Source: Rugalucina vietnamica (Eukaryota > Mollusca > Bivalvia > Lucinida > Lucinidae). From it: a stretch of DNA of 64,000 bases. Location of the stretch: positions 59,188,812 to 59,252,811 of the forward strand of contig OZ024870.1 of NCBI GenBank assembly GCA_964017185.1. The letters run 5' to 3'. Within the stretch, counting starts at the first letter, position 1. Every line of letters starts with the position of its first letter. The notes below the pieces were generated by a model, which saw only the letters and a list, made by a program, of their open reading frames with translations, was not told the origin of the DNA and did no database searches. The position numbers and the translations under genes were made by a program. Shown here one piece after another: positions 23,983 to 52,337 of this stretch.

Positions 23983-24123
23983 AACTACCTAACAATGAGC
24001 ACTACCGCAAAATTTGAAGATGACTCAGAGTTCGAAGGTGCCAGTGGATCAGTGAGGAACGACGGTACAGAGACAAAATATGTGATTGTGTCACATGTGG
24101 ATGGTGATCCACATAAAATTCAG
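23983..24123 (+). CDS. Coactosin-like gene exon 1 (start of ADF-H domain 1)
   Basis: Preceded by TCTTGTTTCAG and followed by GTATATG. Coding from the ATG at 23995 gives 43 residues, ending DGDPHKIQ in phase 0. The 5' boundary looks like an acceptor, so an upstream non-coding or coding exon probably exists, perhaps left of the MITE at 23141. Confidence 0.75.
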
Positions 24124-24613: not shown

Positions 24614-24644
<31 letters not shown>

Positions 24645-26415: not shown

Positions 26416-26466
<51 letters not shown>

Positions 26467-29400: not shown

Positions 29401-32400
29401 ACTGATAAAAGGCCCATGGGCGTGCAAATTCATCACACTATGACACATAGATAAAAGTAAGCGTCTTTCTGATCACATTATTTTACACTTATTTGGGAGA
29501 CTGTGATGTGTTCATCTCCAAAATCAAAAAAATCCTTTTGCATGCATTTGTATTTTACCAATACACATATCATATAAAAATGGCATTCTTGACCCCTGTC
29601 ATTTTACTTGTTCCATACCACTACATGTGTAATTTATAGTGATAACAAGTTTAGTTTACCCCGTCATTTTGTCCAACCTGTCATTGTTGCTACAGACATC
29701 GTCAATGACGTTAAGGTTTCCTTCAAATATACACAACAACTGTACAGTCTTAAGAGATGATGTTCCTCTTGGATGCGACTAAGGATGACATGTACTGGAT
29801 TATTGAGCTGCATATCATTTTTCTACATAACTGATGAATAAAAAGTATGTAAAAATACGAAAATTTGATCAAAAATTCCATTTTTATTTAGTTTTGGCAG
29901 CCATCTTGGATGCCATTTTTATTTCACAATGGCATAATTCCCAAATGGGTGCAATTTTTGCACAAAATGATACATATATTATATTTCTGGACTGTTTCTG
30001 ACCAGGAAACACACGATGTTGCACTATGAGTGTTCGGTACTGTATGGTTGTAATAGATGGCAGCCATCTTGGATTCCATTTTAAATTAATTTTAATTGCC
30101 AAAGGGTGACAAGGTGGCGTCAGCTGTCTAGTGTTCATTTGTTGCAAATACTTCTTCTACACCATTTACAATATTAAAAAATTGTAAAAAACTATGAAAT
30201 CTGTTTGAAAAATCCAACTTTTTTCATTTAGGCGGCCATCTTGGATGCCATTTTTGTTTCACACTCACAAAAGACCAATTAAATTACAACTTTTTGACAA
30301 TATAAAACATCTGTAACATTTATGGATGAAATCTGATCAGAAAAGCTTGCATTTTGCACTATACAGACCTTGTACTTTAAAATTTTAACAGATGAGAACC
30401 CTCTTGGACGCCATCTTGAATTATGGGAGTTGCCCAAGGGTGACAAGGTGGCATCAAGTGGTTTCTTGTTCCTGAAGGTGTTGGCTATCATAATCAGTCA
30501 AAACATTTTCTATACACCGCAAATCCAGGTCCACCCCAGAATCTGCCAGACTATGATGTAGGTCCACAGGATGGTCTAGTGTTTGGAAGTTGTACCATGT
30601 CAGAGACTCAGGTAATGAGTACATGTATTCTTTTGACGCTGCTAGGCAAACAAAAATTGATCTGATTCATCATGTACATGTATTAATAATAAACTTTTGC
30701 TTCTTAAAGTCTGACTTAGAAAATACACGTAGGTGGCAAGAGGAACTAAGAATCCCTCTTTTTCTTAAAGAAAAAATGAATAGCCTCAAGCCACATTCTG
30801 TGGTTGTATAGTATACAGATCTGACTTTGTCTGCTCTGGTCAATAGCCCAGAATACAGTTTTTTACAGACTGTTTGCATCAATCTCTGAATCAAGAGCTC
30901 TGGGACCAGTTTTTCAAAACTTAGTTAGCTCAACACTGTCGTTAAGCCAGGGTTTTCCCTCAGAGTTTTAATTTAAGGGACATATGTCCCAGTATTGACA
31001 GCTCCTGAGGGACATTCGGACAAAATAGTTGAGCATTTAGTGGACAGTTATATCAGGAACTAGAAATAATTTGTAAATTTTTTGGGACATCATTGTCCCC
31101 TCTCCGGACAGTTTTAGGGGTCTTTGGAGGCAAACAAGGGTCAAAATGCACATTTTTGTGTGCCAGGGAAAACACTGGTTAAGCCCTCAATTTGTTAACT
31201 ATATACTGTAAATCCGGAAATGTTCACGAGAACTTAATTTTCGCTAATATTCGCGAATTCGTTGCCTCGCGAAAAATAAAGTTCTCGCAAATTAAGAGTT
31301 ACAATAAGCTTTATTGACTGCATAAGTACTTGTTCACAAATTCAAAGACTCCCTAATAATTTGGAAATTGAACTATTGCGAAATAAAAGACACACAAAAA
31401 TTTCTGAACTTACTGTATCAACTTCAAAAGCAAATACACTGTTAAATTTTGTTGAAAAAATGTGAGAATCCTTTGCATTGCTAAGGATTCTCACATTTTT
31501 TCAACAAAAAATAACAGTGTATTTGTAATATTACCATTCTTTAACTAACGACATCGTTAACTTTTAACAACTGCCTCCTGGTAGTTAAATGTTGAACCTC
31601 ACTGGAACTGGTTTGTGTCAATGGACAAGACGCATTTACACACCATAAATGTAGTTCATGTTTATGCCCAGGAATTGGTTTCTTAGTATTCATTGACATG
31701 ACTGAAAAATTGTTGACTTTGATGTTAAACTAATTTAAGCCTGGCGTCCCTTTTATGGGACATAGGCAAACAAAATAACCCCAGATGTGACGCCGCAGAA
31801 CGCAGCATCCCATCTGGGGCTATTTTGTTTGCTTAGACAATTTTCATCGAAAAATTGAACAAGATTTAAAAATCACTCCTGACACCCCCCAAAAATGAAA
31901 GTGGACTGACCCAAATGATAATGATGGGAAAATCCATTTGTCAAATATGGGTTACCAAAAAGCAAACAAACAGATCTTGATGTCATCCATTCAGGTTCTG
32001 CGTACTGGAAATGATGTTGAAGAGATTGGTGATCAGATGCAGGATGATCAGGTCATGTACGTCCTGGCGAGGTACCAGAGCACCTTTGATATGTCAACGA
32101 CCGTCAAGTTTGTCTACTTTAGATGGTATTTATCATAGTTTAGTAAGATATATTTGTTAGTTCTTCTTTAGTTGATGATCAAATGCAGGATGATCAGTGT
32201 ATGTACATCCTGGTGAGATACCAGAGCACCTTTGACATGTTGACAAATGTCAAGTTTGTTTACCTTTGATGGTAAGATTAAAATTGAGTTTTTCTTGTAA
32301 CCTTAATTAAATGAAAAGGTTAAAATTATTGACCAGCAGCGCCTTTGTTTTTGCTTCATGGATAGAGCAATCTCTCATATTTATGCCCCCAACTTTGAAA

Positions 32401-35028
32401 AAGTTGGAAGGGCATATTGCTTTCGGCTTGTCTGTCTGTCTGTCTGTCTGTCTGTGTGTGTGTGCGTGTGTACGTCTGTTAACTTTTGAATGGTGAATGT
32501 TAGAGATTTTAAATTTCATGTGTGTTTTCCTCATGAAAAAATAGTTGACCCGTATTTTTTTTCTTGTCTGAGTTATGCCCCTTTTCTGAGTTATTTCCCT
32601 TTGAAAACAAAATTTGAAAATCTTGTGTGCAAGATATCTCGAAAAGTATTTAAGCTAGAGCCTTCATATTTGGTATACTGGTTGGGGCTGATGAGTAGAT
32701 GACCTGGTCAACTTTTGAGAACTTTCCGTCAAATTTTGACAAAAATACGGAATTTTGAAATTTTGATTGATTTTTCCACTTTTCGGTGGAATTTGAAACT
32801 TTTGAATGGTGAATGCTAGGGTTTTGAAATTTTATATACAGATTCCTCATGAAAAAATAGTTGACCCGTATTTTTTTTCATGTCCAAGTTATACCCCTTT
32901 TATGAGTTATGTCCCTTTGAAAACAAAATTTGAAAATCTTGTGTGCAAGTTATCTCGAAAAGTATTTAAGCTAGAGCCTTCATATTTGGTATACTGGTTG
33001 GGGCTGATGAGTAGATGACCTGATCAACTTTTGAGAACTTTCCGTCAAATTTTGACAAAAATATGGAATTTTGAAATTTTGATTGATTTTTCCACTTTTC
33101 GGTGGAATTTGAAACTTTTGAATGGTGAATGCTAGGGTTTTGAAATTTTATATACAGATTCCTCATGAAAAAATAGTTGACCCGTATTTTTTTTCATGTC
33201 CAAGTTATGCCCCTTTTATGAGTTATGTCCCTTTGAAAACAAAATTTGAAAATCTTGTGTGCAAGATATATTTAAGCTAGAGCCCTCATATTTGGTATAC
33301 TGGTTGGGGCTGATGAGTAGATGACCTGATCAACTTTTGAGAACTTTCCGTCAAATTTTGACAAAAATACGGAATTTTGAAATTTTGATTGATTTTTCCA
33401 CTTTTCGGTGGAATTTGAAACTTTTGAATGGTGAATGCTAGGGTTTTGGAATTCTATATACAGATTCCTCATGAAAAAATAGTTGACCCGTATTTTTTTC
33501 ATGTCCAAGTTATGCCCCTTTTATGAGTTATGTCCCTTTGAAAACAAAATTTGAAAATCTTGTGTGCAAGTTATCTAGAAAAGTATTTAAGCTAGAGCCT
33601 TCATATATGGTATACTGGTTGGGGCTGATGAGTAGATGACCTGATCAACTTTTGAGAACTTTCCGTCAAATTTTGACAAAAATATGGAATTTTGAAATTT
33701 TGATTGATTTTTCCACTTTTCGGTGGAATTTGAAACTTTTGAATGGTGAATGCTAGGGTTTTGAAATTTTATATACAGATTCCTCATGAAAAAATAATTG
33801 ACCCGTATTTTTTTTCATGTCCAAGTTATGCCCCTTTTATGAGTTATGTCCCTTTGAAAACAAAATTTGAAAATCTTGTGTGCAAGATATCTCGAACAGT
33901 ATTTAAGCTAGAGCCCTCATATTTGGTATACTGGTTGGGGCTGATGAGTAGATGACCTGATCAACTTTTGAGAACTTTCCGTCAAATTTTGACAAAAATA
34001 CGGAATTTTCAAATTTTGATTGATTTTTCCACTTTTCGGTGAAATTTGAAACTTTTGAACGGTGAACGCTAGGGTTTTGAAATTTTATATACAGATTCCT
34101 CATGAAAAAATAGTTGACCCGTATTTTTTTCATGTTCAAGTTATGCGCCTTTTTGGAGTTATGCCCCTTTTAAAACAAAATTTGAAAATTTTAAAACAAA
34201 ATTTGAAAATTTTAAAACAAAATTTGAAAATCTTGTGTGCAAGATATCTGAAAAAGTATTTAAGCTAGAGCCTTCATATTTTGTATACTGGTTGGGACTG
34301 AGAAGAAGATCACCTGATTAATTTTTTTAGGACTTTCCATCAAATTTTGACAAAGTAACTCCATTTTGAAATTTTTACTCCATTTCTAACTTGTATGCAA
34401 AAAGCTTACATTCTGTTTCTGGATCAAGGTCAAAAACATAGGCAACCGAACAGCTTCTTTAGGAAATTAAATTTCACTTCATTCAAATGAAATAAATGAA
34501 TCATACAGGCTGCCAGTTTAGGGACAAGCATACAGTTGGGGGCATAGTGTTTTACAAACACGCATTTCTAGTCTTAGATCTGAAATTTCAATTTTCTAGC
34601 CTTCTTCTGCACAGCTGATTTGCATCATTTGTATTTGCACTTGCTACATTCTCTATTTCTCGTATTGTGGCTCATTTTATGAAAAGATTTATTATCAAAT
34701 TCAGGAATGGAGAGAAAGTTCCATTTGCCAAGAAGGGAAAGTTTGGTGTGGTTCATGGTAGTATCCAGGAATGGTTCAATCCCTACCACCTCTTCATAGA
34801 GACCAGTTCAAGAGAAGATTTCCAGACTGACAGAATCATACAACAGGTACAGTGATAGAGAAATTTTAAGACAAAACATGACATACAAGGCATGGTTAGC
34901 AGGTTAGGTTGACCGGATATCAATCTCCACAGTGAGACTAAATTAAATGAACATCATGAAAATGGGCAAACATAACCTTTTCTTGGTACTGTGATAGTAA
35001 AGCATCACTCCCTTCTAACACACACGAG

Positions 35029-35077
<49 letters not shown>

Positions 35078-38000
35078 TTATGTGTTTGTAATACCTTTAT
35101 AGAGTGTGTACAACATACACTTGTTACTGCTTAAATATGCATATCTGTATGCAATATAGTGTTATTTGATCAATTTGGTATTTCAGTTTAAAGGGTTTAT
35201 GCAATGATTTCTTAACACGTGATGATTAACATAGATCTCAGAGAAATAGCCACTTTAATTTTTCAGCTTGAGGAAAACACTGGCAAGAAATCAAAGGTAT
35301 TGGAGTCAGGTCAAGGTCGACAGGAGAGGGGTTTCACTGCCACCCAGCTTCCTAAACGGGGCCCTCAGGCCAAGTCAGGGCCTGGCGTTGCTAGTGAAGG
35401 GGCTGTTGTTGAAATATCACAGGAGGTAAACTACTACATAATCATACTAGACAGGCTTTTTAGCTCACCTGAGCCGTCAGGCTCACAAGGTGAGCTTATA
35501 GTATACCCATGCTCCGTCGTCCGTCCGTCCGTCCGTCGTCCGTCCGTCGTCCGTCCGTCCGTCGTCCACCATTTTCAAAGATCTTCTTCTCTGAAACAGC
35601 TTGGCCAATCAAAGCCAAATTTTACATGAAGCATCTATGGGAAGGGGGAACCAATGTGTATATAAATAATCCAGGTCACATGACCAAGATGGCCGCCATG
35701 CCCATATATGGTAAAAACCCTTCAAAAATCTTCTTCTCCGGAACCACTGGACCGATTTCAACCAAACTTGGCATGAAGCATCGATGACTCAAGTACTACA
35801 ATGTGTATATAAATCATGACCTTGCGGTGACCTTGACCTATTTTACAGCAAGGTCAACATAGGTCGCCTTTGCATTTGAATGGGAAAAATTGTTAAATTG
35901 TCATTTAAAGGAAAAATCTTGCAGAAAATGAGCAGTAGGACTGAATATTAATGATTCTGAAAAAAATTGGACCCCAGGGGCTCATATGCCCCCACCCCCG
36001 GGCAATATACATGTATATTACCATAATACTCAAACATCATCTCCTCTGAAACCGCTTGGCCAATCAAAGCCAAATTTTATGTGAAGCATTAATAGGAAGG
36101 GGTTATCAATGTGTATATAAATAATCCAGGTCACATGACCAAGATGGCCGCCATGCCCATATATGTTAAAAACCCTTCAAAAATCTTCTCCAGAACAGGT
36201 GGATCGATTTCAAAGAAACTTGGCATGAAGCACCGATGGCTCAAGCACTACAATGTGTATATAAATCATGACCCTGTGATGACCTTGACTTATTTCACGG
36301 CAAGGTCAACATAGGTCGCCAATGCATTTGAATAGGGAAAACTTTTAAAATGTCATTTAAAGTGAAAGTCTTGCAGGAAATGGGCAGTAGGACTGAATAT
36401 TAATGATTCTGAAAAAAATTGGACCCCAGGGGCTCATCTGCCCCCACCCCGGGGCAATATACATGTATATTACCATAATATTCAAACATCTTCTCCTCTG
36501 AAACCGCTTGGAGAATCAAAGCCAAATTGTATGTGAAACATTTATGGAATGGGGGAATTAATGTATATATAAATTATCTAGTTCACATAACCAAGATGGC
36601 TGCCATGCCCATATATGGTAAAAACCCTTCAAAAATCTTCTTCTCAGAATTTTGAGGACCGAGCTCAAAGAAACTTGGTATGAAGCACCAATGGCTGAAG
36701 TACAACAATGTATATATAAATCATGACCCTGTGGTGACCTTGACCTATTTTACGACAAGGTCAACATTCTAAGGTCGCCAATGCATTGGAATGTGGAAAA
36801 CTTTTAAAAAGTCATTTGAGGTGAAAATCTTGCAGGAAAAGGGTAGTAGGACTAAATATTAATGATTCTGAAAAAAAATGGACTCATATGTCCACACCCC
36901 GGGGCAATATACATGTTTGTTATATGACTGAAGAAAATCCTGTCTCCTGATTGGTTTAGACACTTTTGATAAATATTAATGTAAACCTGGAACTAGTTTA
37001 GACTTGCCTCTTGAGGGTAATATAAAGTCAAAATCCAGCTGAAACCAGTTTCCAGAGGTTAATTATTTTGACAGTTTTTTCTATATTAACCTCCCAAGTA
37101 CATAATTGACGAGTTGAAATTAACAACCTGTCAAAATGAAATGTACATCAAAATACCAACCAATCAGGGATCAGGATACAAAATAGCCATCTGCAACTAA
37201 AAAAATGGCAGGAGTGGCTGCAAAAGGCAGATTTGCTACCTTAAATACTGAAGATTTGGATAAAATTTTGACTGAAAAAGATTCAGTTAGAACAAAAAGG
37301 AGTAATGAAATGGCAGTGAGAATATTCAAGACTTACCTCAGAGAAAAAGAGTTGCCTGAAAATTTTGAGGAGGCATCTGCATCTTCGCTGGACGACCAGC
37401 TGTCAAGATTTTATGCAGAAGTTAGACAAGTAAATGGAGAGAAATACAAAACAACATCTCTCACTGCCATCAGGCATGGCATTAACAGACATTTACAGTT
37501 AAAGACAGAAGGGATTGACATCATCAATGGTGTGGACTTTAAAAAGTCAAAGCAAATGTTTTCTGCAGTAACGAAGGATTTGAAGCGTGATGGCAAGGGT
37601 GGAATCACTCACTACCCTCCTATTGAACCTGAGGATTTGCAGAAAATGTATGAGTATTTTGATCTCGAAGATAATGTAAAGCTCCAACAGAAGGTTTTTG
37701 TGGATATAATGATGTACTTTGGTAGGAGAGGGAGGGAAAATCTACATCAGCTGAAAATCAGTGACTTTGCTGCGACAACAGATTCAACTGGCCACCTGTA
37801 CATATTCATGCCAAATGATGAATTGACTAAGAATCATCAGGATGACCCCAATACTGCAGAGGGGCATATGTATTCCAGAAAAGGTAAGTGCTCAAAGTAA
37901 AACAATGACCATGAATTGGTATAATCAGAACTAAAATACTGTCATTGAATTAGCTAAACATGATAACACTCATATACGAGAATACAACAATTTAAGATTT

Positions 38001-41000: not shown

Positions 41001-44000
41001 AGAATAACTTTATTTCAGAAAATCATCATACAAGGTTTCCTTCAATCACAGGCAAGATTCCAAGCTGAGAGTTTATACTACATGTATTAGATTATTTATT
41101 TATAAGAGAAATAATAATATAAAAAGTAACCATATTCCAGTACAAACCTTTTATCATCAGCTGATTTGTTGACTCTTCTATTGCGTGTTAACTCTAACTT
41201 GTAGGTGTTTGATGCAATATCAGCTGTGAGAAGTGATGATGATTCTACACAGTGGATGGTAGCAGAATACAGGGATTCTAGTCCAAAAGGTAATCAATTA
41301 ATTGTGCTTTGTTCAAAAGTCTTCTCTAACGCAGGATCAAATTCCTTAAAGCCATATAATTGAAGCCAAGCCCATACATAGACTGCAAATTTTTTCCATC
41401 AACAGGCTGGAAGGTATTGCATTGAATTTAGATGGTAAAACTGTTCAAGTTTAAAGAAAAGTTGATGTAGAAGTGTTCAAGTTTAAAGAAAAGTTGATGT
41501 AGAAGAAGAATCCATCCAAAGTGAAAGTGTTTAATTGGAAAGTTTTTCCCTCCAAAAGTCATCTTTTTGGCTTGGATTGTTTTCCATCCGGGAGTAGGCT
41601 GTTTAAAGGGAACACTACATGACATAACCCATCCACACACAGAAGTTGGCCAGGGACATGATTAGGAAGCAAAGGATTTGTACTGTGTATGTATTTTAAC
41701 AAAGAGCTGCTCAGCTTTACAATAATCCCACATAGCTGATCTGTGGTTTGTTTGTGGACAATATCGAAGTTCTGGAAGTTTTATTTACGGAGTAAATATT
41801 TACTCTCATACTTAACAAATTATATAAACAAATTCCTCCCATTGTCCATTTCTTGCCAGTGACGATTGTTCAAAAACAAGAAGAATTGTCAATTTATTTC
41901 TGAATATTGCAGGAGTATATTTTAATAACTCAAAACAGCTGTATTTTTTGCATGTTCATTCTTTACCATATTCCATACATCTTAATAATTTTAACTAGGC
42001 CCCATTGACCTTACAAGCACAGGAACTGGAGACAGTAAAGAAATGGTAGAAAATCTAGTCGACGATAAAGCTATGTATGGACTGTACAGGGTAACAGATA
42101 AAGTAGACAATATTACCACAGTCAAGTTTGTCTATATCATCTGGTAGGTTGTATTTTATAGCATTACGAAAACACACCCATACAGACATTTTGAAAGTTG
42201 TAAAAAATGAAATATTCAAAAGAAAAAATTCAATATTTTTCTTATTTTTGCTCGAAACATAGATTGTGGGTACACGTCTATTGAGTACCCACAATCTATG
42301 TTTTGGAGCAAAAATAAGAAAAATAGGTAAACCCCAGTTTTACTATATAAATATATATATCATGATATCCCTATGTTGGAAAGATGTCCCATAAAATGGA
42401 GGCAATGTCCCAACATTACGATAGTTGTTGACTGGGACATCAAGCATCATATCAAACAAACACATATAAGGAATTTTCGCCTGAAAAATTCTCCAATTTC
42501 GGATTGATATTTCATACAATATTAGCAGTTCAAAAATTTCATAAGCTTGAATGTAAAACCCACTTTTAACACCAGAGGACCAATGGTCCTGTAAACGCTC
42601 ACCTGAGACCTGAGATATATAAATGAACTTGTTAGACTAGAATGGTACAGTGCATGTATATAACCCTAGGGCAGGGTCAGAATAACTCCTGGAGTCAATG
42701 TCTTTTTCAAATCATAAAAATTCAGTCCATTTGCCAATTAACTGCAAGTTTTGTCCTTCAAATGACATTTTAGCAATTTTCTCCATTCAAATGCATGGGT
42801 GATCTAAGTTGATCTTGCCCTGAAATAGGTCAAGGTCATCCCAGTGTCATGATTTATACAAATTTTGTAGACCTCCATTCCTTAATGCTTCATGCCAAGT
42901 TTCAAAATCATAGGCCTTCTGGTTCTGAAGAAGAAGATTTTTAAAAATTTTTGCTATTTATAGCCATGGCGGCCATCTTGGTCATGTGACCTTGACCATT
43001 TATATAAACTTTCATTTCCTCTTCCTAAGGATGCTCCACATAAAGTTTGGCTTTGATTGGCTAAGCAGTTTCTGAGAAATATTATGGTCATCTACATGTA
43101 TATAGCTCCGGGGCAGGGGCAGACAATCCCTGGGCCTAAAATATTTTCATAAGCATAAATCTTCTGCCCATTTGCTCATTCCTAGCAAGTTTTCTGCCAT
43201 TACATGACATTTTCCTATTTTTTCCCATTCAAATGCATGGGCGACCTAAGTTGACCTTGCCGTAAAATAGGTCAAGGTCATCCCAGGGTCATGATTTATA
43301 TAAACTTTGTAGAGCTCCATTCCCAGATGCTTCATACCAAGTTTCAAAATCATAGGCCTTCTGGTTCTGAAGAAGAAGATTTTTAAACATTTTTGCTATT
43401 TATTGCCATGGCGACCATCTTGGTCATGCGACCTTGACCATTTATACAAACTTTCAATCCCTCTTCCTAATGATGCTCCACAAAAAGTTTGGCTTTGATT
43501 GGCTTAGCGATTTCAGAGAAGAAGATGTTTCAATATTATGGTCATATACTTGTATATAGCCCCGGGGCAGGGGCAGACAACCCCCTAGGCCCAAAATATT
43601 TTCTTAAACTTAAATCTTCTGTCCATTTGCTCATTTCTAGCAAGTTTTCTGCCATTTAATTACATTTTCCTATTTTTAGCTCACCTGAGCCGAAGGCTCA
43701 CAGGTGAGCTTATAGTATACCCATGCTCCGGCGTCCGTCCGTCGTCCGTCGTCGTCCGTCCGTCGTCCACAATTTCAAAGATCTTCTCCTCTGAAACCGC
43801 TTGGCCAGTCAAAGCCAAACTTCATGTGGAGCATCCTTAGGAAGGGGGAACGAAAGTTTATATAAATGGTCCAGGTCACATGACCAAGATGGCCACCATG
43901 GCTATAAATAGCAAAAACCTTTAAAAATCTTCTTCTCCAGAACCAGTGGGCCGATTTCCACAAAACTTGGTATGTAGCATCGAGGACGCGGGCCCATCAT

Positions 44001-47000
44001 AATTTATATAAATCATGACCCTGGGATGACCTTGACCTATTGTACGGCAAGGTCAACTTAGGTCGCCAATGCATTTGAATGGGAAAAAATGGTAAAATGC
44101 TATTTAAAGGGTAAAACTTACTGGGAATAGGCCAATGGACAGAATATTAATGTTAATGGAAAATTTTAGCCCCTGGGGTTTGTCTGCCCCTGCCCCGGGG
44201 CTATACATATGTATATTTCCATAATAATGAAACATCTTCTCCCCTGAAACCGCTTGGCCAATCAAAGCCAAACTTCATATGGAGCATCCTTGGGAAGGGG
44301 GAAAGAAAGTTTATATAAATGGTCAAGGTCACATGACCAAGATGGCTGCTATGGCTATAAATAGAAAAACCTTTAAAAATCTTCTTCTCCAGAACCAGAA
44401 GGCCAATGATTTTGAAACTTGGTGTGAAGCATCAGTGACTGGAGCTCTACAAAGTTTATATAAATCATGACCTTGGGATGACCTTGACCTATTTTGCGGC
44501 AAGGTCAACATAGGTCGCTCATGCATTTGAATGGGGAAAAGTGTTAAAATGTCATTTGTAGGGAAAAACTTGCAGGAAATGGGCAAATGGACTTAAGATA
44601 GATGATTCTGATAAAATTTGGACCCCAGGGGTCTGTCTGCCCCCACCCCGGGGCAATATACATGTATATAACAGTGATATTCAAAGATCTTCTTCTCTGA
44701 ATTTGCTTGGCAAATCAAAGCCAAACTTTATGAGGAGCATTGTTAGGAAGTGGGAATGAAAGTATATATAAATGGTCAAGGTCACATGGCCAAGATGGCT
44801 GCCATGGCTATAAATAGCAAAAACCTTTAAAAATCTTCTTCTCCAGAACCAGAAGGCCTATGATTTTGAAACTTAGCATGAAGCATCAGGCACTGGAGCT
44901 CTACAATGTTTATATAAATCATGACCCTTAGATGACCTTGATCTATTTTATGGCATGGTCAACTTAGGTCGCCCATGCATTTGAATGGGGAAAATTGATA
45001 CAATGTCATTTGAAGGGCAAAACTTGCAGTAAATTGGCAAATGGACTGAAGTTTTATGATTTGAAAAAGAAATTGACTCCAGGGGTTGCTCTGACCCGGC
45101 CCTGGGGTTATATACATGTATATTACCATTCTAGTCAAATAAGTTTATTGGTATATATCTCAGGTTTCAGGTGAGCGTTTACAGGACCATTGGTCCTCTG
45201 GTTTCCCATTCCAATGCATGGGAGACCTAAGTTGACCTTGCCGTAAAATAGGTCAAGGTCATCCCAGGGTCATGATTTATATAAACTTTGTAGAGCTCCA
45301 TTCCCAGATGCTTCACACCAAGTTTCAAAATCATAGGCCTTCTGGTTCTGAAGAAGAAGATTTTTAAATGTTTTTGCTATTTATAGCCCTGGCGGCCATC
45401 TTGGTCATGTGACCTTGACCATTTATATAAACTTTCATTCACTCTTCCCAAGGATGCTCCACATGAAGTTTGGCTTTGATTGGCCCAGCGGTTTCAAAGA
45501 AGAAGATGTTTGAATATTATGGTCATATACATGTATATAGCCCCGGGGCAGGGGCAGACAACCCCCCAGGGGCTAAACTTTTCCATTAACATTAATCTTC
45601 TGTCCATTTGCTCATTTCTAGCAAGTTTTCTGCAATTTAATTAAGTTTTACCCATTAAATAGCATTTTACCATTTTTCCCATTCAAATGCATTGGCGACC
45701 AGCAAGTTGACCTTGCTGTAAAACAGGTCAAGGTCATCCTAGGGTCATGATTTATATAAACTATGATGGGCCCGCGTCCCCGATGCTACATACCAAGTTT
45801 CGTGGAAATCGGCCCACTGGTTCTGGAGAAGAAGATTTTTAAAGGTTTTTGCTATTTATAGCCATGGCGGCCATCTTGGTCATGTGACCTGGACCATTTA
45901 TATAAACTTTCGTTCCCCCTTCCTAAGGATGCTCCACATGAAGTTTGGCTCTGATTGGCCAAGCGGTTTCAGAGGAGAAGATCTTTGAAATTGTGAACGA
46001 CGGACGGACGCCGGAGCATGGGTATACTATAAGCTCACCTGTGAGCCTTCAGCTCAGGTGAGCTAAAAATATGAAATATGGAGCTTCTTAAAACTTAATT
46101 TCTCACCAGAGGACCAATGGTCCTGTAAACGCTCACCTGAAACCCGAGATATATACCGATAAACTTGTTTGACTAGAATGGTAATATACATGTATATAAC
46201 CCCAGGGCCGGGTCAGAGCAACCCTTGGAGTCAGTTTCTTTTTGAAAACATAAAACATCAGTCCATTTGCCAGTACATGTATACTGTGAGTTTTGCCCTT
46301 CAAATGACATTTTAACAATTTTCCCCATTCAAATGCATGGGCGACCTATGTTGACCATGCCGTAAAATTGGTCAAGGTCATCCAAGGGTCACGATTTATA
46401 TAAAATTTGTAGAGCCTGATGCTTCATGCCAAGTTTCAAAATCATAGGCCTTCTGGTTCTGGAGAAAAAAGATTTTTAAAGGTTTTTGCTATTTATAGCC
46501 ATGACCGCCATCTTGGTCATGTGACCTGGACCATTTATTTAAACTTTTGTTCCCCCTTCCTAAGAATGCTCCACATGAAGTTTGGCTTTGATTGGCAAAG
46601 CTGTTTCAGAGAAGATCTTTGAACATTATGATAATATACATGTATATTACCCCGGGGTGGGGGCAGACCTGCCCCTGGGGTCCAATTTATTTTAGAATCA
46701 TAAATGTCAAGTCCCTTTGCCCATTTCCATAAAGTATTTCCCCTCAAATGACATTTTGACAATTTTCCCCATTCAAATGCATGGGCGACACATGTTGACC
46801 TTGCCGTAAAATAGGTCAAGGTCATCCCAGGGTCATGATTTATATAAAATTTGTAGAGCTCCTCACCCTGATGCTTCATGCCAAGTTTCAAAATCGTAGG
46901 CCTTCTGGTTCTGGAGAAGAAGATTTTTAAAGGTTTTTGCTATTTATAGCCATGGCAGCCATCTTGGTCATGTGACCTTGACCATTTATACATACTTTCA

Positions 47001-50000
47001 TTCCCACTTCCTAACAATGTTCCTCATAAAGTTTGGCTTTGATTGGCCAAACAGTTTCAGAGAAGAAGATCTTTGAATATCACTGAAATATACATGTATA
47101 TTGCCCAGGGTGGGGGCAGACAGACCCCTGGGGTCCAAATTTTTTCAGAATCATCAATCTTAAGTCCATTTGCCCATTTCCTGCAAGTTTTTCCCTACAA
47201 ATGACATTTTAACACTTTTCCCCATTCAAATATTTGAGCGAACTATGTTGACCTTGCCGTAAAATAGGTCAAGGTCATCCAAGGGTCACGATTTATATAA
47301 AATTTGTAGAGCCTGATGCTTCATGCCAAGTTTCAAAATCATAAGCCTTCTGGTTCTGGAGAAAAAAGATTTTTAAAGGTTTTTGCTATTTGTAGCCATG
47401 ACCGCCATCTTGGTCATGTGACCTGGACCATTTATTTAAACTTTTGTTCCCCCTTCCTAAGAATGCTCCACATGAAGTTTGGCTTTGATTGGCAAAGCTG
47501 TTTCAGAGAAGATCTTTGAACATTATGATAATATACATGTATATTACCCCGGGGTGGGGGCAGACCTGCCCCTGGGGTCCAATTTATTTTAGAATCATAA
47601 ATGTCAAGTCCCTTTGCCCATTTCCATAAAGTATTTCCCCTCAAATGACATTTTGACAATTTTCCCCATTCAAATGCATGGGCGACACATGTTGACCTTG
47701 CCGTAAAATAGGTCAAGGTCATCCCAGGGTCATGATTTATATAAAATTTGTAGAGCTCCTCACCCTGATGCTTATGTCAAGTTTCAAAATTGTAGGCCTT
47801 CTGGTTCTGGAGAAGAAGATTTTTAAAGGTTTTTGCTATTTATAGCCATGGCAGCCATCTTGGTCATGTGACCTTGACCATTTATACATACTTTCATTCC
47901 CACTTCCTAACAATATTCCTCATAAAGTTTGGCTTTGATTGGCCAAGCAGTTTCAGAGAAGAAGATCTTTGAATATCACTGAAATATACATGTATATTGC
48001 CCCAGGGTGGGGGCAGACAGACCCCTGGGGTCCAATTTTTTTCAGAATCATCAATCTTAAGTCCATTTGCCCATTTCCTGCAAGTTTTTCCCTACAAATG
48101 ACATTTTAACACTTTTCCCCATTCAAATGCATGAGCGAACTATGTTGACCTTGCCGTAAAATAGGTCAAGGTCATCACAGGGTCATGATTTATATAAAAT
48201 TTGTAGAGCTCCACTCACTGATGCTTCACACCAAGTTTCAAAATCATTGGCCTTCTGGTTCTGGAGAAGAAGATTTTTAAAGTTTTTTTTTCTATTTATA
48301 GCCTTGGCAGCCATCTTGGTCATGTGACCTTGACCATTTATATAAACTTTCTTTCCCCCTTCCCAAGGATGCTCCATATGAAGTTTGGCTTTGATTGGCC
48401 AAGCGGTTTCAGGGGAGAAGATGTTTCATTATTATGGAAATATACGTGTATATAGCCCTGGGTCAGGGGCAGACAAACCCCAGGGGCTTAAATTTTCCAT
48501 TAACATTAATCTTCTGTCCATTTGCCTATTCCCAGTAAGTTTTACCCATTAAATAGCATTTTACCATTTTTTCCCATTCAAATGCATTGGCGACCTAAGT
48601 TGACCTTGCCGTAAAAAAGGTCAAGGTCATCCTAGGGTCATGATTTATATAAACTATGATGGGCCCGCGTCCCCGATGCTACATACCAAGTTTCGTGGAA
48701 ATCGGCCCACTGGTTCTGGAGAAGAAGATTTTCAAAGGTTTTTGCTATTTATAGCCATGGCGGCCATCTTGGTCATGTGACCTGGACCATTTATATAAAC
48801 TTTCGTTCCCCCTTCCTAAGGATGCTCCACAAGTAGAATGGCTTTGATTGGCCAAGCAGTTTCAGAGGAGAAGATCTTTGAAATTGTTAACGACGACGAC
48901 GGTGACGGAGCATGGGTATACTATAAGCTCACCTGTGAGCCTTCGGCTCAGGTGAGCTAACAAGTGCTTCTTTTGGCCTCTTACTTTTACCGTAACTATC
49001 CTATTGTTGTATATAAACAGAAAAGTTTGTTTCTTCACATTTGAGATAATTCTATCCTCATAAATTTCAGGGTAGGTGGTAATGTTAAACCCATGACCAA
49101 GGCTAAAATTTCCACCCACAAAGGTATTGCAGAACAAACATTTGGACCCTACCATGTCAGCATATACGCCAATGACACCTCAGATATCTCAGAAAATATT
49201 ATCATGGAAAAGGTAGGTTACATTACAAAAACTTGCCCATGCAATAAACAGATATTTTTTGAGCTTTAAAAATTGAACATTTTCAGCTGAAAATTTTGAT
49301 ATTTTTCTTATTTTTGCTCAAAACATAGATTGTGGTTACGCATTAGAATTTAGGTTTAACGAGTACCCACAATCTATGTTTTTGAGTCAAAATAAGAAAA
49401 AAGGTATACCCCTGCATACACCAGTTTTGCTACATAAAAGTGAGCTATCAAGGGGGTATACATTACACAGACATGTTTTTTGTGATGATAAGAATTTTGG
49501 CTTGAGAGTCTTGGTTTAGCATGTAAAGAGATGCAAGGAAGATGTAATAAACAAACCTCAATTTTCCAAGTTAAATTTTTGCATCATCAGGCTCATTTTC
49601 TACCATCAGGAAAACATGTCCAAGACATGTATACCCCCTTAAACCCCAGTTTTATGTAGAAAAATTGGGGTTTGCAAGGGCATACCTGTTTCTCATTTTT
49701 GCTCCAAAACATTGATTGTGGGTACTTGTTAGAACCGCCTCAGTGAAGGCGGTTCTAAAGTGTACCTACAATGTTTTGAGCAAAAATATTAAAAATATCA
49801 AGTTTCGAACAAACATTTGGACCATACCATGTCAGCATATATGACACCTCTGATATCTCAGAAAATATTATCATGGAAAAGGTAGGTTATAAGAGTTTTG
49901 GCTTGAGAATTTAGGTGAAACATGTAAAGAGATGCAAGGAGAGATGAGTTTTGGCTTGAGAATTTAGGTTTTACATGTAAAGAGATGCAAGAAGGGATGA

Positions 50001-52337
50001 GTTTAGGCTTGAGAATTTGTTTTACATGTAATATTTAACATGTAAAGAGATGCAAGGAGAGATGAGTTTAGGCTTGAGAAGGACATCTATGCCTTAGATG
50101 TAAGAAGTCCCTAAATCTCAGATTTGGGAGGACGAAATTTTCATCTTATGACTATGCGGCTAAATTTAGCATGTATAGGAGAAGAAATATATACACTTTC
50201 GTTTACAAAACAGTTTGGCTGATTTAACAGAATCCAGACAATGCAACTAAATATTTTCACAACCCACCCCATCTTTGGCAAAAATGAACCATACGACTTT
50301 GAACTGATTTGCATTTGTTTGTCAACAGCATTTTTCAAGCAAACAAAGATGGGCTTGTTTGTCATATGAATGCTGAACAATATCCACACATTGATTGTTT
50401 AATGTTTTATAATTCTAAGTTTATTTTGAAAAAAATGTTAGCTTAGTGCATAAGATCTTTAATTTACAATCTTATAGTTTCTTTCTAGGTGTGTTCCCCC
50501 CCGGGACCCAGCATGCCCTTTCGTCAGTTTGTGTGTTTTTCACATTCACACGTCATATCAAAGTGGCATCCTGGGTCTAGGGGGGGAACAGGGTCAGCAA
50601 GGCGAAAATGTATAATTTCCTGAAATTTTCCGTGAATTAAAATAAGCACAGTTGTTATGGACAATTTTAAAGACATCAACTGTAGAATTGTAAACATTCA
50701 TGGTCGTATTTCTTGTCAAACCGGTGTTAGGGTGAGTATATTTAGGTTATGTAGATGTATTTATAGAGATACAGTACAGGTTCAAAAGTAAATTTGCTTT
50801 CAATATATCTTACTGCATTAATGCTTAGAAATGTGAATTCCCAAACTAATGTTAAAATCGACATAAATTATGTCATTGACAATCATAATATGCAACAACA
50901 CAATAATAATAAAGAACTAGGCATTTTCGTCTTTGAAAGTGACATATTTGTCAATTAGGGAGTATCCCAATCTAAGGCATAGATGTCCTTTATTTACCAT
51001 GTAAAGAGATGCAAGGTCAGTGTAATAAGCAAACCTCAATTTTTGAAGTTATTTTTTCACATCATAAGTCTCATTTTTCAAAGAATGTGATTGAAGCATA
51101 AGCTGGGGTCAACCTTCAAAGAAGCAAGTCCTGGACATGAAAGAAAATTTTGTTTCTTGTTTTACTGCCCACGTTTAGTAAAGGCTGATCAGGCTGAGAG
51201 AGTGACTATGTTAGTCTTTAGTTTATACAACATGTCAGGGATTTTTTTCGGGTGTCTCAGGGGCCGAAATAAGGCCCCATTCCCAATGCAGTTTGGGTGA
51301 TTTTTTTCCCAATTTGAAGAAAAAAATTCCCAATCAAAGCTGATTTTTTTTTCAACAGTTCCATACATTGTGAAATTCAAACTTTGCTGTTTGAAACAGT
51401 GTTTAGCTTTGATTATAAGTTATTATTTAATGATTCTAAATAAAATACCTTAATAAGGTACGTCACATTTGAAAATATCATCAATTGTGAATATTTTGAA
51501 AATTTCCCAAATTCAGGGTTTAAGTCGCTAAATTTCCCAATCAGAAAAGCCCTAGGGCCCCTTCCCAAAATTGCCAAAAAAATCCCTGCATGTCTTGTAC
51601 CCAAAGCCTTAATTATTGGATTTATCAAGCAGCAGTCTAGTTTCAAATTGTAAAAATTCTATTTTTTGTCTCCACCTTTTCTAGGTAACCTCAGCATCTG
51701 GCACTAGAGTGCATGTGAAATGAGGACAGTGGTCTCACAATGCCTATACAACTGAGCTGCCTCATTGGAAAACCGACATGGTTTTTGAACAGGTCCGACA
51801 CAAACTGGGCTGTACAGCCACAGAAGACAGCTTGAAGTTTGAAATTTTGGTTTTAAGAAGAAGAGAAATTGTACTATCCGAGTAGCGAAGACAAAGGCAC
51901 AGCTGATCTGCATCTTTGTCTTCGCATAGGCAAAAATCTGGTTTGTCATCACGCGGCTCATATTTTATCTGTACATGTTCCAGGTTACCTCAGCATCTGG
52001 CACTAGAGTGCATGTGAAATGAGGACAGTGGTCTCACAATGCCGAAACAACTGCCATAATCCACCAACAAGCCTAGAACCGGTGCTTCTCTAAAGTGCCT
52101 CTGAGGAAAACAGTTACTACAGTTCATGAATAGCATATCATTGTCAAGCATGCCAGTCATGTTATGTTGTATTGTTTAATGAGATATTGTAGGGTTTTTT
52201 TTTTCTACGTTTTTATTATTGAAAGATATATAAAATCAGATTTTTATCCTCCTCATTGTAAATGTTCAAATGATTAGTATTGGTTTAATGTGGATTAATT
52301 GTTTTTGTACTGTTATAAGTTAGAATAAAAATAGAAT
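23983..52337 (+). CDS. Tandem ADF-H (coactosin-like) protein gene, eight coding exons, 323 aa
   Basis: Eight exons join with consistent phases: 23995-24123, 31995-32125, 34705-34846, 35267-35425, 41205-41289, 41999-42143, 49071-49212 and 51685-51723 (972 nt including stop). The product has two actin-depolymerising-factor homology domains. Domain 1 is about residues 15-145 (VRNDGTETKYVIV, MYVLARYQSTFD, TTVKFVYFRW, KVPFAKKGKFGVVHGSIQE, FQTDRIIQQLEENTGKKSK). Domain 2 is about 190-320 (VRSDDDSTQWMVAEY, MYGLYRVTD, TTVKFVYIIW, KAKISTHKG, IIMEKVTSASG). A Gly/Lys/Gln-rich linker (about 150-188) separates them. Coactosins bind F-actin in the cytoplasm through such a domain, but normally have one. The start at 23995 is the only nearby ATG; the frame stays open upstream to the splice-like CAG at 23982, so an earlier exon is possible. 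An AATAAA lies at 52323. Function as an actin regulator is inferred from the family. Confidence 0.85.
24124..25370. other. Intron 1 proximal part: possible inverted-end element and simple repeats
   Basis: CATGTGCTTGCACTAGTGG (24158-24176) and TTAGTGCAAGCACTGCGCGG (25361-25380) are roughly inverted and may bound one element. Inside are T-runs (24617-24641, 24678-24690), an A/T-only patch with AAATAAAT repeats (24717-24780) and an ATAATAAT-rich stretch (24825-25000). No coding content. Confidence 0.45.
25376..25608. mobile_element. Fold-back MITE 'GAGCC' family, copy 1
   Basis: The ends read GCGGCCCATGGGAAAACCAA and TTGGTTTTCCCACGAGGTGG. A central inverted repeat, GCAGATCAGCTTCGCGGTAA and CCGCGAAGCTGATCAGCGCC, can fold into a second hairpin. 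Shared blocks are GAAAACAAAG, TTTGTTTTCGCTAC, ATAGTACAATTCCTC, TTTCAAGCTTCTAGCT and CAGGCTGGTTTGTGTCGGAC. It lies in intron 1. Confidence 0.82.
26417..26466 (+). repeat. (TAA)n microsatellite
   Basis: About 17 TAA units in uninterrupted array inside the tandem-unit element. Confidence 0.9.
26669..26900 (+). mobile_element. SINE with mollusc-type tail and 9-bp target duplication
   Basis: The body has GGGGTGGTATCAGGTAAAAG, CTGATACCACAGTGAGGCAG, CACAACCAGACACCGTCATG and the 3' end GTTGAAAGCGACGTTAAACC, then a (CAAA)n tail. Direct repeats TGTTACAAC flank it (26660-26668 and 26901-26909). The 3' end matches SINEs that I recall as widespread in bivalves. The head resembles a highly diverged promoter and was not assigned to a tRNA. 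Confidence 0.85.
27150..27213 (+). repeat. Short tandem duplication (about 32 bp x 2)
   Basis: TTTTAAAAGCAGTAGAGCGA and CTGTAATACTA occur twice in direct succession, separated by TAA. Confidence 0.8.
27214..28974. other. Intron 1 stretch without a recognised gene
   Basis: The segment between the two inverted tandem-unit copies. 27390-27415 (GCACGGAATCAAACCCAGGG) read on the minus strand resembles a B box (GGGTTTGATTCC), so a tRNA-derived SINE remnant is possible. An AT palindrome lies at about 27859-27890. Nothing coding was seen. Confidence 0.45.
28975..30538 (-). repeat. 'Aagatggc-gcc' tandem-unit element, - copy
   Basis: Reverse-oriented copy with units of about 350-400 bp: GGCGGCCATCTTGGATGCCA, TTGTCACCCTTTGGCA-like and ACTTCTTCTACACCATTT blocks recur (29160, 29880, 30060, 30240). 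With the + copy at 25835 it forms a large inverted repeat around about 1.9 kb; the outermost 200 bp or so of the two arms are nearly identical. Confidence 0.75.
30947..31178. mobile_element. MITE, 232 bp, 5-bp target duplication TTAAG
   Basis: Ends CCAGGGTTTTCCCT and AGGGAAAACACTGG are inverted repeats with one mismatch. TTAAG flanks both sides (30942-30946 and 31179-31183). Inside are GGGACATATGTCCC and other GGGACA motifs. It is the third element here with CAG-type ends and a 5-bp duplication. Confidence 0.75.
31204..31417. mobile_element. MITE 'TACTGTAAATCCGGAAAT'
   Basis: The left end TACTGTAAATCCGGAAAT and right end ATTTCTGAACTTACTGTA are inverted with four mismatches. The interior has TTCGCGAATTCGTTGCCTCG with CGCGAAAAATAAAGTTCTCG, a type of short element common in invertebrate genomes. 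Confidence 0.7.
31431..31525. repeat. 95-bp near-perfect hairpin
   Basis: Arms of about 43 nt (CAAATACACTGTTA, TTTTGTTGAAAAAATGTGAG, AATCCTT and complement) surround the loop TGCATTGC. A decayed single arm occurs at 58483-58535 (ACAATACACTG, GAGAATCCTTTG). Confidence 0.85.
31765..31838. repeat. Hairpin: GCAAACAAAATAACCCCAGA arms
   Basis: AGGCAAACAAAATA then CCCCAGATG is the reverse complement of CATCTGGGG then (C)TATTTTGTTTGC. The loop is GC-rich (GTGACGCCGCAGAACGCAGC). It lies about 160 bp upstream of exon 2. Confidence 0.75.
31995..32125 (+). CDS. Coactosin-like gene exon 2 (ADF-H domain 1 core)
   Basis: Acceptor CATTCAG, donor ATG|GTATTT. Codes VLRTGNDVEEIGDQMQ, then MYVLARYQSTFDMSTTVKFV and YFR, ending in a split Trp codon (phase 2). 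It corresponds to exon 6 of domain 2. Intron 1 before it is 7.87 kb and full of repeats. Confidence 0.85.
32174..32267 (+). pseudogene. Dead duplicate of exon 2
   Basis: It parallels the last 90 nt or so of exon 2, reading DDQMQDDQCMYILVRYQSTF, then DMLTNVKFVYL. The Arg codon AGA before the terminal Trp has become TGA, although the TG|GTAAG donor survives. The 5' part is missing, and the nearby TTTAG would give the wrong phase. It is a decayed tandem exon copy 49 bp downstream of the real exon. Confidence 0.85.
32325..34655. mobile_element. 'GAGCC' MITE copy split by a tandem-core element
   Basis: 32330-32380 (GCGCCTTTGTTTTTGCTTCA, GATAGAGCAAT) and 34575-34650 (GATCTGAAATTTCAATTTTC, TAGCC...TCTGCACAGCTGATTTG) are the two parts of a MITE of the 25376 type. 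They are separated by the insertion at 32382-34545. Confidence 0.65.
32382..34545 (+). mobile_element. Tandem-core element, family B (TATGCCCCCAACT ends, 316-bp units)
   Basis: The 5' hairpin TATGCCCCCAACTTTGAAAA with AGTTGGAAGGGCATA is followed by a (GTCT)n/(GT)n microsatellite (32427-32466). Six near-identical units of about 316 bp follow, beginning near 32484, 32800, 33116, 33422, 33737 and 34054, each with GGTGAATGCTAGGGTTTTGA, CAGATTCCTCATGAAAAAAT, AAGCTAGAGCC and GGTTGGGGCTGATGAGTAG. The 3' end is the inverted TIR AGTTGGGGGCATA. The last unit carries a triplicated AAAACAAAATTTGAAAAT patch. Non-coding; it lies in intron 2. Confidence 0.85.
34705..34846 (+). CDS. Coactosin-like gene exon 3 (ADF-H domain 1, C-terminal half)
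   Basis: Acceptor AAATTCAG, donor CAG|GTACAG, 142 nt. Completes the split Trp, then codes NGEKVPFAKKGKFGVVHGSI, QEWFNPYHLFIETSS and REDFQTDRIIQQ. The length and both boundary phases are identical to exon 7 of domain 2. Confidence 0.88.
35020..35076 (+). repeat. (CA)n microsatellite
   Basis: More than 20 CA units after CACGAGCACG, in intron 3 between exons 3 and 4. Confidence 0.9.
35267..35425 (+). CDS. Coactosin-like gene exon 4 (end of domain 1 and linker)
   Basis: Acceptor TTTTTCAG, donor GAG|GTAAAC, 159 nt in phase 0. LEENTGKKSKVLESGQ finishes the C-terminal helix. The rest (RGPQAKSGPGVASEG and neighbours) is a low-complexity, basic Gly/Gln/Ser-rich linker ending VVEISQE. Confidence 0.85.
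35457..36920 (+). mobile_element. Tandem-core element, family A (AGCTCACCTG ends), 3'-truncated
   Basis: The 5' hairpin TTTTAGCTCACCTGAGCCG with CGGCTC-like and AAGGTGAGCTTATAGTATAC is followed by (GTCC)n/GTCGTCC repeats (35515-35570). About three units of some 440 bp follow, each with CTCTGAAACCGCTTGGCCAA, CAAGATGGCCGCCATG, TGACCTTGACCTATTTTAC and CCCGGGGCAATATACATG. The usual 3' end (CAGGTGAGCG...CTCTGGT) is absent. It begins 32 nt after exon 4. Confidence 0.85.
36921..37204 (+). other. Upstream region of the nested recombinase gene
   Basis: TCTCCTGATTGGTTTAG (36939-36955) and CAACCAATCAGGGA (37158-37171) are inverted and each contain a CCAAT-type box in opposite orientation (ATTGG/CCAAT). 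Between them lie GTTAATTATTTTGACAG and TTGAAATTAACAACCTGTCA, also partly inverted. This could be a promoter or the terminal repeat of a Crypton-like element; it was not resolved. Confidence 0.4.
37205..38880 (+). CDS. Crypton-type tyrosine recombinase-like protein, two exons, 455 aa
   Basis: Exon 1 is 37205-37883, the intron 37884-38191 (AAG|GTAAGT ... TTGCAG|ATG) and exon 2 38192-38880, joined in phase 1 (SRK-DDPMCP). The N-terminal half (residues 10-130) is a SAM-like core-binding region (TLNTEDLDKILTEKDSVRTK, YKTTSLTAIRHGINRHL). The C-terminal catalytic region carries YFGRRGRENLHQL (Arg174/175/177), RYTNHSLPATTV, VTGQKSENSLKTYTG (Tyr327) and a tail rich in Asn/Met. Proteins of this type (DUF3504; relatives are KCTD1, ZMYM and QRICH1 C-termini) derive from Crypton transposons. 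Of the usual R..HxxR..H..Y residues, Arg and Tyr and the first His (292) remain, but the second Arg is Pro295 and the later His is Gln318. DNA-strand cleavage is therefore doubtful and a domesticated role or a decayed transposon is likely. It lies on the same strand within intron 4 of the coactosin-like gene. Confidence 0.85.
38881..39924. other. Downstream of the nested recombinase gene
   Basis: No further gene recognised. AATAAA-containing and A-rich sequence follows the stop closely (GAAAAATCC, then A11 at 38938-38950), and a short 3' UTR is plausible. The rest is AT-rich intron. Confidence 0.45.
39925..40634 (+). mobile_element. Family A element remnants with a nested fold-back MITE
   Basis: 39960-40015 (AACCACTTGGCCAAATTTTA, TGTGGAGCAT) and 40255-40634 (CAAACATCCACTCC, CATGACCAAGATGGCCACCA) match family A units. 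The 3' end is intact: CAGGTGAGCGTTTACAGGAC, CATTGGTCCTCTGGT. The 5' end and microsatellite are missing. A palindromic MITE (40112-40253) separates the pieces. Confidence 0.75.
40112..40253. mobile_element. Nearly perfect palindromic MITE, 142 bp
   Basis: The arms TTATTGACTTCGAT, GGATATAAGGATTTATCAAC and TGATATTCACCTCGGCC pair with their complements around the loop TTC. Only a few mismatches are present. It sits inside a family A remnant. Confidence 0.88.
40754..40993. mobile_element. Fold-back MITE 'GAGCC' family, copy 2
   Basis: The ends TGAGCCGCGATGCGAGAAAA and TTTTCTCACGATGTGGCTCA are inverted, with the central AGCTTCGCAGTTAGTGTTCG hairpin. Opposite orientation to copy 1. It lies about 210 bp upstream of exon 5. 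Confidence 0.85.
41205..41289 (+). CDS. Coactosin-like gene exon 5 (start of ADF-H domain 2)
   Basis: Acceptor AACTTGTAG, donor AAAG|GTAATC, 85 nt. Codes VFDAISAVRSDDDSTQWMVA, then EYRDSSPK and the first base of Gly (phase 1). Intron 4 before it (5.8 kb) holds the nested recombinase gene. Confidence 0.82.
41290..41998. other. Intron 5
   Basis: A short direct duplication (TGTTCAAGTTTAAAGAAAAG, TTGATGTAGAAG, twice at about 41443-41504). No other feature. Confidence 0.6.
41999..42143 (+). CDS. Coactosin-like gene exon 6 (ADF-H domain 2 core)
   Basis: Acceptor TTTAACTAG, donor CTG|GTAGGT, 145 nt. Codes PIDLTSTGTGDSKEMVENL, then DDKAMYGLYRVTDKVDNITT and VKFVYII, ending in a split Trp codon (phase 2) exactly as exon 2 does. 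Confidence 0.86.
42236..42324. repeat. Fold-back MITE 'GTGGGTACACG', copy 2 (stem tip deleted)
   Basis: CTTATTTTTGCTCGAAACAT, AGATTGTGGGTACACG pairs with GAGTACCCACAATCTATGTT, TTGGAGCAAAAATAAG. The inner AACCGCCTCG stem seen in other copies is replaced by TCTATT. It is about 95 bp after exon 6. Confidence 0.85.
42573..46068 (-). mobile_element. Family A tandem-core element, reverse, with a second copy nested
   Basis: The minus-strand 3' end (ACCAGAGGACCAATGGTCCT then GTAAACGCTCACCTGA) is at 42573; the 5' hairpin and (GTCC)n (GACGGACGGACGCCGG, CAGGTGAGCTAAAAA) is at 46000-46068. Units of about 440 bp repeat CCATGGCGGCCATCTTGGTC and ATTCAAATGCATGGGCGACC. A forward copy (43678-45202) interrupts it inside a run of T. 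Confidence 0.82.
43678..45202 (+). mobile_element. Family A tandem-core element, complete, inserted in its own family
   Basis: It starts TAGCTCACCTGAGCC with hairpin, then GTCCGTCCGTCGTCC repeats (43731-43765). Three units follow, and it ends CAGGTGAGCGTTTACAGGAC with the palindrome AGGACCATTGGTCCT and CTGGT. The host reads CCTATTTT before and TTCCC after; sister units read CCTATTTTTTCCC. The element therefore went between T and T without a longer target duplication, as Helentron-type elements do. Confidence 0.82.
46103..48958 (-). mobile_element. Family A tandem-core element, reverse, with 897-bp internal duplication
   Basis: Bounded by ACCAGAGGACCAATGGTCCT (46103) and the 5' hairpin GAGCCTTCGGCTCAGGTGAG (about 48935-48958), with a reduced GACGACGACGG microsatellite. 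46400-47300 and 47297-48197 are nearly identical at an offset of 897, equal to two units, so this array grew by recent unequal exchange. It ends 113 bp before exon 7. Confidence 0.82.
49071..49212 (+). CDS. Coactosin-like gene exon 7 (ADF-H domain 2, C-terminal half)
   Basis: Acceptor TAAATTTCAG, donor AAG|GTAGGT, 142 nt. Codes VGGNVKPMTKAKISTHKG, IAEQTFGPYHVSIYAND and TSDISENIIMEK. The KAKISTHKG stretch matches the KANxSxHKA region of coactosins. Intron 6 before it (6.9 kb) is mostly tandem-core elements. Confidence 0.87.
49301..49400. repeat. Fold-back MITE 'GTGGGTACACG', copy 3
   Basis: ATTTTTGCTCAAAACATAGA, TTGTGGTTACGC pairs with GAGTACCCACAATCTATGTT, TTTGAGTCAAAATAAG; the inner stem has decayed. 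It lies 90 bp after exon 7. Confidence 0.8.
49690..49790. repeat. Fold-back MITE 'GTGGGTACACG', copy 4
   Basis: TTTTTGCTCCAAAACATTGA, GGGTACTTGTTAGAACCGCC pairs with GGCGGTTCTAAAGTGTACCT, ACAATGTTTTGAGCAAAAAT. It directly precedes the partial exon 7 duplicate. Confidence 0.82.
49808..49881 (+). pseudogene. Partial recent duplicate of exon 7
   Basis: GAACAAACATTTGGACC through ATCATGGAAAAG|GTAGGTTA is almost identical to the second half of exon 7, minus 6 nt (two codons, Ala-Asn of YANDT). The acceptor and first half are missing; a fold-back MITE (49690-49790) sits directly upstream. It is not spliceable as an exon without a new acceptor. Confidence 0.85.
49890..50090 (+). repeat. Short tandem array, about 50-bp units
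   Basis: Four units contain GGCTTGAGAATTTAGG then ACATGTAAAGAGATGCAAGG and GAGATGAGTTT. Related single copies lie at 49497-49540 and 50998-51020, showing that this intron is itself duplicated. Confidence 0.82.
50091..51684. other. Intron 7, mostly unassigned
   Basis: Contains a fold-back element at about 50488-50592: TGTTCCCCCCCGGGACCCAG with CATGCC pairs with GGCATCCTGGGTCTAGGGGG. A second possible inverted-end repeat lies at about 51237-51590 (GGGATTTTTTTCGG / AAAAAAATCCCTGCA). No further gene was seen. Confidence 0.5.
51685..51723 (+). CDS. Coactosin-like gene exon 8, terminal exon copy a
   Basis: A strong pyrimidine-rich acceptor (CCACCTTTTCTAG) precedes VTSASGTRVHVK and TGA. The shared 3' UTR start (GAGGACAGTGGTCTCACAAT) is broken 22 nt on by a MITE (51752-51962). 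Confidence 0.78.
   Translation, partial: VTSASGTRVHVK
51752..51962. mobile_element. Fold-back MITE 'GAGCC' family, copy 3
   Basis: Ends CTGAGCTGCCTCATTGGAAA and TTGTCATCACGCGGCTCAT; the central hairpin is reduced. It lies between the two copies of terminal exon 8, 22 nt after copy a's 3' UTR homology. Confidence 0.8.
51984..52022 (+). CDS. Coactosin-like gene exon 8, terminal exon copy b
   Basis: Acceptor CATGTTCCAG precedes the same 12 codons (VTSASGTRVHVK) and stop as copy a, with one synonymous change (GTA/GTT). The 3' UTR beyond it is uninterrupted to AATAAA (52323), so this may be the terminal exon actually used with a full 3' UTR. Confidence 0.78.
   Translation, partial: VTSASGTRVHVK
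52323..52328 (+). terminator. Candidate polyadenylation signal
   Basis: AATAAA followed 9 nt later by an A-rich tract (52338-52356), about 300 nt after the second stop codon. It is the first clear AATAAA after exon 8b. The genomic A tract makes the exact 3' end uncertain. Confidence 0.5.

Follow-up and report, generated by a model that had tools for sequence, protein, structure and literature searches.

A spliced gene with two ADF-H domains in the bivalve Rugalucina vietnamica, probably from the coactosin/Abp1/drebrin side of the superfamily

The part of PMC5297645 drawn on here divides ADF-H proteins into five groups, of which twinfilin is the group said to have a pair of such domains. The locus analysed below raises the question of whether short open blocks scattered over ~28 kb of a bivalve genome form one gene for another protein of two ADF-H domains and, if so, where in the superfamily that protein stands. 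It surfaced through a Pfam search of the organism's own genome and inspection of open frames. We call the window the whole stretch analysed, 64,000 nt of Rugalucina vietnamica (assembly GCA_964017185.1, contig OZ024870.1, 59,188,812 to 59,252,811 forward).

Eight short exons and two ADF-H domains

The original prediction was that eight short blocks join in phase to 323 codons, and this number was recovered when exon 8 was added to the exons bounded by AG and GT. Exons 1-7 (23983-49212) were preceded by AG and followed by GT in 7/7 cases and their joined frame was open for 311 codons, with phases of 0, 2, 0, 0, 1, 2 and 0 after the successive exons. Exon 8 extended this frame from 311 to 323 codons with VTSASGTRVHVK and a stop. 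The gene model comprises the following features.

23983..24123, + strand: exon 1; 12 nt, then ATG at 23995; start of domain 1, 43 codons; AG/GT borders, open frame and a match in the genome protein search
31995..32125, + strand: exon 2; central part of domain 1; 3' border in phase 2 within a split Trp codon (TG/G); 26.4 bits alone, above the PF00241 cut-off
34705..34846, + strand: exon 3; length 142 nt; closing part of domain 1; 3' border in phase 0; AG/GT borders, open frame
35267..35425, + strand: exon 4; rest of domain 1, then the basic linker and the beginning of domain 2; both borders in phase 0
41205..41289, + strand: exon 5; domain 2 with helix 1 and the initial strands; the 5' end of the exon lacks a start codon of its own
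41999..42143, + strand: exon 6; central part of domain 2; 3' border in phase 2 within a split Trp codon (TG/G); 28.6 bits alone, above the PF00241 cut-off
49071..49212, + strand: exon 7; length 142 nt; closing part of domain 2; 3' border in phase 0; 29 bits alone, above the PF00241 cut-off
51984..52022, + strand: coding part of exon 8; VTSASGTRVHVK then stop; from an acceptor scan, raises the scores to solved relatives
52023..52337, + strand: possible 3' untranslated region (weak); AATAAA at 52324, then a genomic A-run

The product of 323 codons would have a mass of 36 kDa. The introns measured 420 to 7871 nt, and GC content was higher in the exon than in its flanks for all eight exons. Exon 8 is short, and two candidate copies of its peptide were present (51984-52022 and 51685-51723). 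Its residues raised the domain scores against DBNL (from 43.4 to 49.0 bits), Abp1 (from 33.4 to 39.9) and the coactosin chain 1tmw (from 28.5 to 32.9). The candidate 3' end at 52337 was taken solely from the AATAAA at 52324 and the genomic A-run.

The joined protein matched Pfam Cofilin_ADF (PF00241, curated cut-off 22.4 bits) in two stretches (E 2.7e-43, 147.1 bits), and its halves did so separately (E 1.6e-17, 63.8 bits and E 3.9e-25, 88.4 bits), so that the whole protein and each half belong to the ADF/cofilin superfamily by this cut-off. The profile search that had been proposed as a check on the joined protein thus returned an ADF-H match in both halves. Exons 2, 6 and 7 each exceeded the family cut-off even unjoined, in the whole-genome Pfam search. 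Given 0.060 stops per codon, the probability that a run of 311 codons stays open by luck is ~5e-9, a figure that does not correct for the choice of exons. As a control, 20,000 in-phase AG..GT chains were assembled at random within the window, from pools that include the real exons by construction, and scored with a profile of seven reference ADF-H rows from which both domains of the gene were left out; the real chain with exon 8 reached 142.4 bits versus 53.0 for the best decoy. The observation of a two-domain spliced gene is confirmed, and its structure as modelled is very probably correct. We infer that all eight exons lie within one mRNA.

Genomic surroundings and the unity of the gene

Upstream of exon 1, a tandem array at 17614-22480 has a unit of 1759 bp in ~2.8 copies, with 100% identity over a 3108-nt exact-match run at offset 1759; it is either a recent duplication or an assembly artefact. 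Arrays with a repeat of ~452-453 bp lie in introns 4 and 6 (35575-36883, 43775-45129 and 46289-48882), and a 316-bp repeat array in intron 2 (32481-34189). Reverse-transcriptase ORFs were found at 4366-6911 and 16624-17288 (minus), with RVT_1 matches at E 5.2e-32 in 4794-6908 and E 2.7e-12 in 17013-17288 minus, and the frames adjoining them look like more pieces of such elements. Intron 4 holds two long ORFs at 37187-38880, the first matching Pfam QRICH1 (E 1.7e-7, 31.7 bits for a cut-off of 30.8) and the second matching no Pfam family at E 0.01. We would guess that this pair represents a recombinase-like gene, either mobile or domesticated.

Partial copies of exons 2, 7 and 8 (32172-32274, 49807-49889 and 51661-51754) lie near their own exons. 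Three of the features concerned are the following.

32172..32274, + strand: partial second exon 2, interrupted in frame by TGA; a duplicate in decay or else a poison exon
49807..49889, + strand: partial copy of exon 7; 3' half and donor, lacking the 5' part, 6 nt shorter
51685..51723, + strand: second copy of the exon 8 peptide, after AG, in a duplicated stretch; possible alternative exon 8

Could the eight exons belong to two adjacent genes, or to one that is decaying? Read through from exon 3, intron 3 reaches a stop after two codons, and a one-domain form is therefore possible. This stop would suit two neighbouring one-domain genes, the first made of exons 1-3 and ended in intron 3 or exon 4, the second of exons 5-8 with an unseen first exon; one-domain relatives are moreover the rule in the part of PMC5297645 drawn on, and the coactosin of R. 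vietnamica itself is one of them. We nevertheless consider this arrangement improbable. Both borders of exon 4 are in phase 0, and the exon carries the close of domain 1 together with the opening of domain 2: the residues encoded at its beginning (query 135-139) prolong the domain 1 match to coactosin chains, and those at its end align, gap-free in blastp, with the N-terminal segment of domain 1 that precedes helix 1. Exon 5 begins within helix 1 of domain 2 and has no start codon. One gene is thus favoured over two by the sequence, both because exon 4 supplies the end of one domain and the beginning of the other and because exon 5 starts inside a helix. That the open frame is what is left of a pseudogene or of a gene in decay seems very unlikely to us: the introns do contain incomplete and partly broken duplicates of exons 2 and 7 as well as the doubled exon 8, but all eight main exons are open and preceded by AG, and both domains score well.

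Position in the superfamily and origin of the two domains

Compared with solved chains, domain 2 (with exon 8) was closest to DBNL 1x67 (49.0 bits), yeast Abp1 (39.9) and 4liz (38.1), followed by drebrin (33.9), coactosins (29.4-32.9), actophorin (19.5) and, lower, the cofilins. Domain 1 was closest to 4liz (38.9 bits), followed by DBNL (28.9), drebrin (25.5) and coactosins (20.9-23.5). Vertebrate coactosins were thus outscored by DBNL, Abp1 and 4liz. The last of these, of one domain and 142 residues, is named "actin-binding protein, cofilin/tropomyosin family" in the search output, and we take it to be Entamoeba coactosin. A human COTL1 probe gave only weak matches in the window, the best of them (E 0.085) inside exon 7. 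A nine-row tree, built without twinfilin and GMF rows, left 4/6 inner branches open and did not group the two domains; the rows of domain 1 and cofilin were long.

Searches of the organism's own genome (1.09 Gb in 47 contigs, the window being on contig C2) clarified the relation to its other ADF-H genes. The 311-residue protein found ten places (10 candidates scored), nine in the window and the other in a canonical single-domain coactosin on contig C9; the gene is therefore single-copy at this sensitivity, and the locus is distinct from coactosin and from the drebrin-like gene. We recovered 86 residues of this coactosin, its 5' exons not being found within the 20 kb examined, and the partial sequence scored 57.0 bits to domain 2 and 40.8 to domain 1. 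Under names inferred from sequence, the other loci comprise cofilins and GMF on C4, a twinfilin-type locus on C7, which the search with the 311-residue protein did not return, and the drebrin-like gene at C2:42.06 Mb.

The gene shares some features with its closest known relatives and differs from them in others. Twinfilin shares two ADF-H domains in one chain together with a linker. Twinfilin also has a C-terminal tail after its second domain, whereas the model has 12 residues beyond exon 7, and by sequence the domains of this gene probably lie on the coactosin/Abp1/drebrin side. No twinfilin chain appeared among the 15 solved matches of domain 2 (E up to 10) or the 10 of domain 1 (E up to 1). 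With coactosin and COTL1 the gene shares ADF-H domains unaccompanied by any other and an equivalent of K75 in both heads; coactosin, in the parts of the sources drawn on, has a single ADF-H domain and the joined frame has two, and the coactosin gene of the animal itself lies apart, on C9, and lacks an intron at the Trp codon. DBNL is the best solved relative of domain 2, but the passages drawn on give DBNL, Abp1 and drebrin one ADF-H domain, N-terminal in Abp1 and drebrin, with a long further region, and an SH3 domain in Abp1; Pfam reported ADF-H twice and nothing else on 311 residues of our protein, with 12 more residues to the stop. The drebrin-like gene of the genome is a separate locus with other intron positions. 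Since DBNL and 4liz are the best relatives and coactosin, cofilin, GMF, twinfilin and drebrin-like genes exist elsewhere in the genome, the gene probably represents a distinct member with two heads, belonging to the coactosin/Abp1/drebrin side of the superfamily. Of the name "double coactosin" given to it at the outset, the doubling stands; the label "coactosin" is not established, the domains falling by sequence between coactosin, Abp1 and drebrin and the own coactosin being separate.

It had further been argued that the second domain arose by internal duplication, from exons 3 and 7 of equal length, which both measure 142 nt, and from the same split-Trp phase at the ends of exon pairs 2/6 and 3/7. 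The latter pattern holds for exons 2 and 6, which end in TG/G, but exons 3 and 7 begin by completing the Trp codon and end in phase 0. We rejected the split-Trp phase as evidence for duplication: one of the cofilins of the same genome has the same TG/G intron (exon end ATGTG/GTAAGT, next exon start AG/GAAC), so the split Trp is no sign of a recent event. The two domains share neither the position nor the phase of the intron that separates strands 2 and 3. Other evidence favours duplication. Among the nine rows, domains 1 and 2 were each other's top pair (68.9 bits, 31% identity), with 4liz as runner-up for domain 1 (51.6 bits) and DBNL for domain 2 (60.5 bits). Both domains carry an intron in phase 0 beyond their last helix; it is absent from the own coactosin, the own drebrin-like gene and two own cofilin exons (L002 and L003), all of which run through this site. 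Because of this shared intron and the pairing of the two domains, tandem duplication of a one-domain gene with fusion is favoured, although not proven, and most likely the two copies would have been fused through the present exon 4.

Predicted actin binding, proposed action and meaning

A basic linker of about 40 residues had been predicted between the domains. This holds for its core of 41 residues (8 K+R versus 3 D+E, calculated pI 10.5); the whole exon 4 stretch of 53 residues is near neutral (8 K+R versus 7 D+E). The Lys aligned with COTL1 K75, reported as critical for F-actin binding in the part of PMC3890291 drawn on, is kept in both heads. It counts against such binding that the position of COTL1 R73, which was changed together with K75 in the non-binding mutant described there (PMC3890291), is Thr in both heads.

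We take bivalent binding to filament sides as the most likely action. Each head would attach laterally to F-actin, in the manner of coactosin and Abp1, and the linker would allow a single molecule to grip adjacent subunits within one filament or to connect two filaments. Since the linker would allow such a two-site hold, filaments would be protected or bundled by avidity rather than severed or capped at their ends. We see even chances that the two heads bind F-actin sides bivalently in this way. The main functional rival is an Abp1-like regulator of Arp2/3, whose two heads would bind the Arp2/3 complex and F-actin instead of two actin sites. Domain 2 is nearest to DBNL and Abp1 among solved chains, and Abp1 dimers are reported, in the part of PMC6057921 drawn on, to place both ADF-H domains on Arp2/3, or one there with the other free for F-actin. 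The effects of yeast Abp1 also require acidic motifs according to the same part of PMC6057921, however, and the protein has no SH3 domain, as Pfam reports ADF-H alone. We regard such a bridge between Arp2/3 and F-actin as unlikely. Our preferred reading of the whole, an intact single-copy gene of two ADF-H domains and a basic linker that arose by duplication and acts as a bivalent F-actin side binder, is in our opinion somewhat more probable than its alternatives combined.

As to novelty, no two-domain coactosin was found by title or abstract in the open-licence literature, among the matches listed, which is not proof of being unpublished, and our guess is that automatic annotation already predicts the gene in related animals. 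It is plausible that the gene is an architectural variant of a known superfamily. More tentatively, and with somewhat less than even confidence, it may represent a further class of ADF-H architecture, a two-headed F-actin clamp of coactosin/Abp1 type produced by internal duplication and retained in a genome that has cofilin, GMF, twinfilin, coactosin and drebrin-like genes at other loci. If this is true, the two-headed layout arose more than once, and the gene would offer a natural test of what doubling does in a filament binder that does not sever, be it protection, bundling or Arp2/3 bridging.
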